From: Flagellimonas lutaonensis
GTDB lineage: Bacteria > Bacteroidota > Bacteroidia > Flavobacteriales > Flavobacteriaceae
NCBI RefSeq assembly: GCF_000963865.1
Contig: NZ_CP011071.1
Location: 248,001 to 312,000 of the forward strand
Direction: 5' to 3'
Length of the DNA stretch: 64,000 bases
Shown here: piece by piece, positions 62,382-64,000 of the stretch
How positions within the stretch are numbered: position 1 is the stretch's first letter
How the letters are laid out: every line of letters begins with the position of its first letter
Position numbers and translations under genes: made by a program
Notes under the pieces: generated by a model
What the model was told of the DNA's origin: nothing
What the model saw: the letters and a program-made list of their open reading frames with translations, nothing else
The model's database searches: none

Positions 62382-62795
62382 ATGAAGTTCTTTAGAAGAA
62401 TAAGACACAAGCTAATTTTGGACAATAAAAAAATTCAATACCTGAAGTATGCGTTAGGAGAAATCATACTGGTGGTAATAGGGATTTTGATTGCTCTACA
62501 AATTAATAATTGGAATCAGTCTATTAAAGATAAAAATTCACTTAATGAATATTTGATAAAGATAAAATCTCACACAACTGAAGATATAGAACAGTTAGTT
62601 GATTTAGCAAAGGGAAGAAAGCAAATTGCCGACCTCTGTAAAAAAGCACGTAACAGTGAAGGCTTCCCTGTTTTTGAAGACTTCCCTGTTTTTGAAGACT
62701 TACCCTTTTTGAAGGCTTCCCTGTTTTTGAAGGCTTCCCTGTTTTTGAAGGCTTCCCTGTTTTTGAAGACTTACCCTTTTTCGTACAGCGGTTAA
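62382..62795 (+). pseudogene. DUF6090-type membrane protein gene, 5' fragment interrupted by repeats and an IS3 element
   Basis: The first ~90 residues are a good DUF6090-type N-terminus: a basic KFFRRIRHKLILDNKKIQYL stretch, then the membrane span YALGEIILVVIGILIALQINNW. After residue ~92 the frame runs into the tandem array at 62658-62781 and encodes only repeat-derived FPVFED/FLKASL words up to the stop inside the IS left end. Intact relatives are expected to be more than twice as long. The rest of the gene is not recognisable in the 42 bp right of the IS, so it is probably lost or beyond the window. Codon use is AT-rich, unlike neighbours. Confidence 0.7.
62658..62781. repeat. seven-unit tandem array built from the IS terminal sequences
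   Basis: Seven units in head-to-tail order: GAAGGCTTCCCTGTTTTT (62658-62675), GAAGACTTCCCTGTTTTT (62676-62693), GAAGACTTACCCTTTTT (62694-62710), then three exact copies of the first type (62711-62764) and a last 17-bp unit (62765-62781) that runs directly into CGTACAG of the IS. The 18-bp type equals the outer end of the right IS terminus; the 17-bp type equals the left terminus; the second unit is a hybrid of both. Confidence 0.75.
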
Positions 62796-62813
62796 ATTAA
62801 ACAAAATGTTTTT

Positions 62814-63644
62814 TCAAAGGGGCATGCCCCTTTGAAAAACCTCTAAAAATTCTTTCGGGCTGCTTCTTCCCAGAGACTTATGGGGATGGAACCGATTGTA
62901 TTCCTCCCTGAAGCGTTCCGTTTCCATATTTACTTCCTCGATGTCCCTGAACAAATGGGCATCGAGTACATCTTCGCGATATGTCCGGTTGAACCTTTCG
63001 ATAAAACCGTTCTGGCTCGGCTTGCCCGGTTGTATGTATTTTATCTCGATATCCTCCACTTCGCAATAGTTGACAAAGACTCTGGATAGGAATTCGGGGC
63101 CGTTGTCCACTCTTATGGCCAAGGGCTTGCCATGGATCTCTATGGCCTCCCTTAGGTACTCCACCACCCTTATTCCGGGCATGGAGAAGTTTCCTTTCAT
63201 ACAAAGTGCCTCACGGTTGAAATCGTCCATCAGGTTGAACACCCTGAAGTTCCTTCCCGTTATCAGGCTGTCGGACATGAAGTCCGCGCTCCATACCTCC
63301 CTTGGGGCATCGGGTACCTCCAGCGGCTCCTTTATCCGCTTGGGCAATCGCTTCTTGGTCTTTCTCCTTAGTTGCATGCCCAAGAACCGGTAGACCCTCA
63401 GTACACGTTTACGGTTCCATTTATGGCCTTGCTTGCGCATGCGGTTATAGAGCCAGTCGAAGCCCCGGTTCGGCTTGGCCTCTGCAAGTTCCGTCAACTT
63501 GTCGATGACCTGCGTATCGTCACGACGGCTCCGATAGTACCACATCGAACGGCAAAGGCATACTATCGTACAAGCACGTGAAATGCTCAGCCCCTCTTCC
63601 TTTACGATGCCTTCCGCCAGTTCCCTGCGCCCGCAAGGCCTCAA
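62814..63644 (-). CDS. IS3-family transposase OrfB (DDE integrase core)
   Basis: 276 residues. An HTH_21-type region (KPNRGFDWLYNRMRKQGH, about 52-69) precedes the rve catalytic core with its DDE triad in SADFMSDS, RVDNGPEF and NGFIERFNRTYRED; YNRFHPHKSLGRSSPKEFL ends the domain. It overlaps orfA by 4 bp in the -1 frame and its first possible start is TTG, so it is most likely made as an OrfAB fusion by frameshifting. Confidence 0.92.
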   Translation of the reverse strand: MRPCGRRELAEGIVKEEGLSISRACTIVCLCRSMWYYRSRRDDTQVIDKLTELAEAKPNRGFDWLYNRMRKQGHKWNRKRVLRVYRFLGMQLRRKTKKRLPKRIKEPLEVPDAPREVWSADFMSDSLITGRNFRVFNLMDDFNREALCMKGNFSMPGIRVVEYLREAIEIHGKPLAIRVDNGPEFLSRVFVNYCEVEDIEIKYIQPGKPSQNGFIERFNRTYREDVLDAHLFRDIEEVNMETERFREEYNRFHPHKSLGRSSPKEFLEVFQRGMPL

Positions 63645-63907
63645 AGCTTTTTTTCGATGATGTCCTTTAAAATCCTATGGTCAAGGCTCAGGTCTGCGTA
63701 CATCGCCTTGAGCCTCCTGTTTTCTTCCTGCAAAGACTTGAGCTCCTTGAGCTGTTGGGCGTCCATACCACCGTACTTGCGCTTCCAACTGTAAAAGGTG
63801 GCCGTGGTGATACCCTTGTCACGACAGATGTCGGTGACCTTCATTCCCGAATCGTACTGGTGGAGCATGGATACAATCTGTGCTTCCGTGAATCTGCTTT
63901 TCTTCAT
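63641..63907 (-). CDS. IS3-family transposase OrfA (HTH and leucine zipper)
   Basis: 88 residues. The helix-turn-helix KKSRFTEAQIVSMLHQYDSG...VTDICRDKGITTATFYSWKRK, split over about 1-46, binds the IS ends, and a heptad-type coiled coil follows (LKELKSLQEENRRLKAMYADL). It ends IIEKKL just after the slippery heptamer. Stop-start overlap with orfB is 4 bp. Confidence 0.92.
   Translation of the reverse strand: MKKSRFTEAQIVSMLHQYDSGMKVTDICRDKGITTATFYSWKRKYGGMDAQQLKELKSLQEENRRLKAMYADLSLDHRILKDIIEKKL
63647..63653 (-). promoter_or_regulatory. programmed -1 frameshift site A_AAA_AAG of the IS
   Basis: In the orfA frame the minus strand reads GAA AAA AAG CTT TGA; the heptamer A AAA AAG is in the zero frame, two codons before the orfA stop, and the -1 frame is orfB. 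This is the canonical IS3-family arrangement for OrfAB production. Confidence 0.75.
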
Positions 63908-64000
63908 AAGCTAAAAATAATTGATTTTTAAACTGTACGAAAAACAGGGAAGCCTTCAGAAACCGATCAAAAGAACCTCCCGACCGTTATGGCGGGCCTT

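Follow-up and report, generated by a model that had tools for sequence, protein, structure and literature searches.

Tandem repeats of the outer 17 or 18 bp of IS3-family element ends, a possible by-product of aborted copy-out transposition

Directly outside the left tip of a complete IS3-family insertion sequence (IS) in Flagellimonas lutaonensis, six short units lie head to tail at 62657-62763 in the order R, R variant, L, R, R, R, and units of the same kind are linked to IS ends in 16 genomes including this one (DNA, protein and pattern searches; manual tally with truncated ends counted). Each extra unit consists of the outer 17 bp of a left end (L17) or the outer 18 bp of a right end (R18), with rare one-base exceptions. 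What is new here is that such arrays are an unusual, repeatable product of an ordinary IS3-family element. The reading preferred here, held at about even confidence from comparison of the sequences, is that the arrays arise when copy-out transposition fails: a tip would become attached at position 17/18 of a second end in direct orientation, and two insertion sites would be fused. The window is the whole stretch of 64,000 nt that was analysed (positions 248,001 to 312,000 of contig NZ_CP011071.1), and the coordinates of its features are collected in Table 1.

Table 1. Features at and beside the array, in positions of the window.
Feature	Coordinates	Strand	Remarks
DUF6090 gene, 5' fragment of about 92 codons that stops at the array	62382..62656	+	PF19578, profile positions 1-55 of 182
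Unit 1, R18	62657..62674	+	no difference from the right end's outer 18 bp
Unit 2, R18 with one base changed (earlier 'hybrid')	62675..62692	+	1 difference from R, 4 from L
Unit 3, L17	62693..62709	+	0 differences from the outer 17 bp of the left end
Unit 4, R18	62710..62727	+	0 differences from R
Unit 5, R18	62728..62745	+	0 differences from R
Unit 6, R18, adjoins the IS element	62746..62763	+	0 differences from R
IS3-family element, 1195 bp, tips TGAAG...CTTCA	62764..63958	-	without target duplication
Left terminal inverted repeat	62764..62789	+	outer part 62764-62780 = L17; inner block TCGTACAG starts at 62781
30-bp palindrome just inside the left end	62810..62839	.	100% match to its own reverse complement
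OrfB, DDE integrase core	62814..63644	-	rve, rve_3; NF033516 (transpos_IS3) 189.9 bits, cut-off 160
OrfA, 88 aa, helix-turn-helix	63641..63907	-	PF01527, 3.8e-22
Right terminal inverted repeat	63933..63958	-	outer 18 bp = R18, then TCGTACAG

The element itself is an ordinary member of the IS3 family, with a helix-turn-helix OrfA and an OrfB with a DDE core in two overlapping frames (OrfA ends at 63641 and the listed frame of OrfB extends up to 63644). OrfB scores above the cut-off of the NF033516 profile, with OrfA alone falling below it. At the overlap lies an A7G run (63648-63654, minus strand), presumably a -1 frameshift site of the type common in the IS3 family. Terminal inverted repeats are combined with a short target duplication of fixed length, as is characteristic of the family, a 4-bp duplication flanking both of the unit-free copies in the same genome. 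The length of this duplication, the only subgroup feature compared (the transposase was compared at the level of IS3), would be compatible with an IS407-like subgroup. The palindrome just inside the left end is present in all five copies in the genome, nearly unchanged in relatives in two other genomes (G132, with the coordinates of Kriegella aquimaris DSM 19886 of the Flavobacteriaceae, and G352), and is possibly a terminator-like hairpin behind the transposase gene.

Tandem Repeats Finder, run on the window, recovers an 18-bp period at 62657-62781, in agreement with the extent and period given in the initial annotation of this DNA. Seven units had been counted there, the last of which (62764-62780) is the element's own left tip, leaving six; the four R18 copies and the order up to the element were read correctly, one of the two supposed left-end copies is that same tip, and the supposed hybrid is R with a single G>A at position 6, for which recombination is not needed. 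Unit-by-unit comparison with the IS ends also bears out the earlier remark that all units are equally oriented, the orientation of all six being that of the left end that they adjoin. A 12-bp tip core, with one mismatch allowed, has eight matches in the window; 100 dinucleotide-shuffled versions average 0.94 matches and never exceed 4, and the array is not a product of chance. No sign of a function was seen for the array, through which the reading frame of the DUF6090 gene continues to 62795, a lengthening by about 45 residues.

The gene that stops at the array has its nearest relative in a genome of the same genus (G001), an open frame of 271 residues of which only residues 16-108 match the fragment. 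No counterpart of the relative's residues 109-271 was found by family search in the whole genome or beside its own IS copies, and the genome holds no second match to PF19578. About two thirds of the DUF6090 gene are therefore estimated to be missing beside the array, a length taken from the non-syntenic G001 relative; because this relative is not at a syntenic place, the original length of the gene is an assumption, and this counts against the preferred reading. G001 (L159) has 25 matches to the DUF6090 fragment, many of them tightly clustered, and the genome studied here has one truncated copy. In the flanks of the array-bearing copies, Pfam names one domain only, the N-terminal domain of GmrSD next to the copy at 157916.

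The genome holds five copies of the IS, with 0-3 differences per 1195 bases. Two are free of units and have the 4-bp target duplications AAAC and CTTA, while the survey of further copies that had been proposed earlier shows extra units at three of the five (six at a left end, and one R18 at a right end, twice), none of which has a duplication; the copy in the window has ACAG before the array and GAAA after its right end. In genome coordinates the three arrays are situated near 310657 (that of the window), 157902 and 2000119. The element is absent from three other genomes of the genus that were searched. Elsewhere, units are found at left and at right ends and also mixed, as in L071, where L17, L17 and R18 precede a right end. 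A second IS family, with TGTAG tips and an OrfB about 51-57% identical to that of the window, carries R18 units before its right end (L050, L304 and L324) or before its left end (L052 and L312), and strings that cross families, with TGTAG-type units preceding TGAAG-type ends, are present at L056, L094, L125 and L130. A third group, with TGTAAG tips (Flavobacteriaceae, Nitrospirales), has no units beside its 14 complete copies. There are likewise no units near three plasmid relatives, taken from 203 plasmid records listed (identity <60% in all), and the viral contigs contain no relative of the element. Five pairs of genomes with the same coordinates are duplicates (G400 and G414, G403 and G410, G401 and G089, G402 and G352, G405 and G132), and repeats were removed by flanking sequence from the counts of copies, arrays and spacings.

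The spacing of the units follows a narrow rule. Measured between successive tip cores, with no unit length presupposed and pairs with intact tip cores counted, 47 of the 48 same-strand pairs within 60 bp are 17 or 18 bp apart (17 bp in 15 pairs, 18 bp in 32, 24 bp in one), and the spacing is 17 after L-type units and 18 after R-type units with three one-base exceptions. The loci were partly picked by match to an 18-base pattern, by which the spacing of neighbours is not fixed; a reversed control core gave no hits, a weak control given that the loci had been picked for the core. Each unit runs from the tip to the inner conserved block T[CA]G[TG]ACAG, where it is joined to what is usually a tip of the same orientation, and head-to-head pairs of tip cores within 30 bp are absent from all loci examined. 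In both the TGAAG and the TGTAG family the boundary lies directly before this block, so that it tracks the inner block and not the distance from the tip alone. The TGTAG family reads AAAAA/TGTAG at the boundary (marked by the slash; written AAAAA/TAGGACAG), other bases than in the first family. Unlike the direct arrays elsewhere, inward-facing pairs of units occur at L210 (minus strand near 1534) and at L195:1500-1545, and L177:1501-1542 is a 42-bp miniature element in which a right and a left end are fused via shared inner bases.

In a small sample, copies with units and copies without them differ in their target duplications. In the TGAAG and TGTAG families, a perfect 4-bp duplication is present in none of the eight copies with units versus nine of the ten without (Fisher two-sided p=4.1e-4), with L312, which has a unit, left out of the count because one of its flanks is a contig end. 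The grouping by tip type was chosen after seeing the rows; all 33 complete copies taken as rows, third group included (31 have both flanks), give 0/9 with units versus 13/24 without (p=0.005), and a first, smaller count gave 0/5 and 5/6 (p=0.015). Two results count against the preferred reading: L073, the sole unit-free exception in the two families, has neither units nor a target duplication, and the third group has a duplication in four of 13 copies with both flanks and no units. The frequent lack of both in this group means that a missing duplication alone does not imply an array.

Arrays also occur with no complete element attached. Fifteen such solo sites, with at least two units or with one and the start of a second, were tallied manually, single units being left out. 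At 14 of these sites tblastn finds no transposase in the surrounding stretch, and the fifteenth (L071 near 6294) is 2.4 kb from a complete element. The unit pattern is not free of background: it has 66 matches in 29 of 397 genomes, and its reversed form has nine. Single-unit matches without an element were rejected as partly chance or coding; L172 and L179 are one stretch in two genomes, and L175 lies within a long open frame.

The joined flanks of ten sites were searched in 16 genomes. Where both flanks have homologues that could be aligned (L138, L230 and L217), these are at different loci in all three cases, and the search table places the flanks of the single unit L227 at different loci as well. 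One flank only was matched at L136, L120 and L202; L180, L196 and L071 had no match beyond their own site in the 16 genomes, and dedicated searches saw no intact empty site for L180 or L178. Several solo flanks are multi-copy (the 3' part of a tRNA, repeats), which counts against the preferred reading, and intergenic divergence could also be the cause of the two flanks not being recovered side by side. The flank alignments therefore support fused sites but do not decide the matter. At L230 the match to the left flank ends no more than one base from the outer tip, and what follows in the matching sequence was not recovered in the right flank. Past the last full unit, at least nine of the 15 solo sites show by eye a further 5 to 16 tip-like bases before the sequences diverge, which fits either tip-like host sequence or copying that ended mid-unit. 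The right part of L120 has transposase codons up to the tip-like stretch (a match of 77 bases at 78%), presumably those of an IS256-type transposase, to judge by a motif, and the site is compatible with tip-like host sequence or microhomology. At L138 (minus strand near 2035) a 3' tRNA fragment is joined to other DNA at a solo R,L array. An exact insertion into the anticodon loop of a tRNA-Met was considered for this site and rejected, as the tRNA of relatives continues differently from that point, and ARAGORN finds no tRNA with the units included or removed. Two of the relatives' loci compared, L272 and L275, have the 3' part of the L138 tRNA ending abruptly close to that position, the picture expected where mobile DNA has integrated.

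In the proposed origin by aborted copy-out transposition, a tip X that the transposase has cleaved, or host DNA resembling a tip, would be joined to position 17/18 of a directly oriented end Y. The product would consist of the old flank of Y, the outer 17/18 bp of Y, element X and the other flank of X, with the DNA between lost. Repeated rounds in which X or Y already carried units would give arrays that mix left and right units and families, slippage may extend runs such as RRR, and a solo array would be left if X were tip-like host DNA only or if the IS were lost later. A single-copy process would keep its own target duplication, which none of the eight copies has, and a single end does not suffice for mixed and cross-family arrays; both observations argue that the joints were made between copies. 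The intact tip points to cleavage by transposase, and the constant inner boundary points to the inner block, presumably bound by transposase. The units lack the inner block TCGTACAG and are therefore expected to be poor binding sites; by analogy with IS2, as described in the portion of PMC3299598 drawn on here, this block would lie in the part of the end to which protein binds. This lends no support to a recruitment of transposase by extra termini, which the initial annotation had considered.

For the joint-making step, the balance leans tentatively towards template switching in aborted copy-out over direct strand transfer, the same product being expected from both. In template switching, a polymerase would enter an end, copy its outer part, stop at the presumably bound transposase and restart at an exposed tip, and such switching in aborted copy-out is proposed for the loss of ISApl1 in the section of PMC5821093 consulted. 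The 'repeated abortive one-ended transposition' of the initial annotation comes close to this origin, to which are added joints between different insertion sites, suggested by the absence of duplications in all eight copies and by the truncated DUF6090 gene, and a boundary at the edge of the inner block. Several points count against it. A search of the literature brought up no experimental example of joining at position 17/18. None of 44 inner blocks lacks its outer part, which would leave only deletion or copying at work, and inversions might be expected too. Further, the copies in the genome are so similar that six separate additions at a single site would have had to follow one another quickly, unless slippage contributed.

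Direct DDE strand transfer is a tenable if somewhat unlikely alternative, in which position 17/18 of an end would serve as a preferred target for the 3'-OH of another end (e.g., one in the IR-IR junction between tandem copies), an intramolecular attack deleting the intervening DNA. The constant tip-to-tip distance (the core used requires an intact tip) and the occurrence of cross-family joints speak for it, as does IS30, which, according to the passages of PMC9333248 used here, inserts next to its own ends and whose IR-IR junctions cause deletions and inversions. However, targeting of the IS30 and IS911 type produces head-to-head ends outside the target tip and not direct units inside it, and its hallmark, a new head-to-head IR-IR junction at the targeted end, is not found, as none of the loci examined has two tips head to head within 30 bp; the absence of orphan bodies (0/44) also stands against it. 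The same lack of head-to-head pairs, with all units direct, argues against the circle-junction origin raised earlier, which would give head-to-head ends.

Local slippage or stuttering at a single copy via TTTTTGAAG, with no second copy needed, is improbable. Tandem repeats of 18 bp expand easily, the window contains an RRR run that may have been expanded in this manner, and in both families an intact right end has a T directly behind the unit, the base with which the tip begins. Against this, the copy's own target duplication would persist (0/8), mixtures of left and right units and of families are impossible from one end, and the TGTAG family, with the boundary given above, has no T run at the right-end boundary, so that slippage at TTTTTGAAG, suggested earlier, fails as a general origin. 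Marginally more improbable is nested insertion at position 17/18 of an end followed by homologous recombination that collapses both copies. It would add exactly one unit in direct orientation per round, but the collapse retains the outer target duplication, seen in none of the eight, and the expected intermediate (far tip, 4-5 bases, inner block), looked for under loose conditions, had two matches, neither near a tip core. The paucity of these intermediates, together with the lack of inner blocks without an outer part (0/44), leans towards copying or deletion. It is very improbable that the arrays are older than the IS and served as favoured targets, as solo arrays without an attached element might suggest, given that a 4-bp duplication would be expected outside element and array (none in eight) and that the array of the window is built from the same terminal variants as the local IS has. 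Finally, mis-assembly can affect short tandem repeats, but an assembly error is most unlikely for an array of only ~125 bp in a single-contig genome with equivalents under the same spacing rule in other assemblies.

If the preferred reading of aborted copy-out is right, the arrays would be a sequence signature of a step normally invisible in genomes and would show where a rearrangement fused two insertion sites, allowing normally inserted IS copies to be easily separated from copies at rearrangement joints. The 17/18-bp limit suggests a physical boundary inside the IS end. A bolder and distinctly doubtful extension is that the outer 17/18 bp would be a self-contained module that the transposition machinery writes repeatedly into chromosomes, alone or strung together, as it jumps from one exposed tip to another among several copies and even across two IS families; were this true, the order of left and right units would be a readable record of the ends that met in past rearrangements.

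With IS911, IS2 and IS150, IS3-family elements that move by copy-out/paste-in, the element shares an OrfA/OrfB transposase and imperfect terminal inverted repeats divided into outer and inner blocks, and the 4-bp duplication in nine of the ten unit-free copies is common ground with elements of this type. The tandem 17/18-bp outer-end units set it apart, a full-text literature search, with subscription papers mostly outside its reach, having found no description of such arrays in IS3 elements or elsewhere. IS30 likewise uses its own ends as recombination partners, with deletions and other rearrangements, although in the parts of PMC9333248 that describe them its joints are left-right, head to head and beside the target end, whereas the units described here are direct, with a joint 17/18 bp into the end. 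For ISApl1, it has been proposed that replication fails while the ends are synapsed, the joint having a few bases in common; there the IS itself is deleted, and the pertinent part of PMC5821093 describes no unit arrays. One-ended transposition of IS801 and IS91 leaves fragments with one end only, a point of similarity, but this is another type of transposition, and the fragments, as given in the relevant portion of PMC3189936, are 229-679 nt long rather than fixed units of 17/18 bp.
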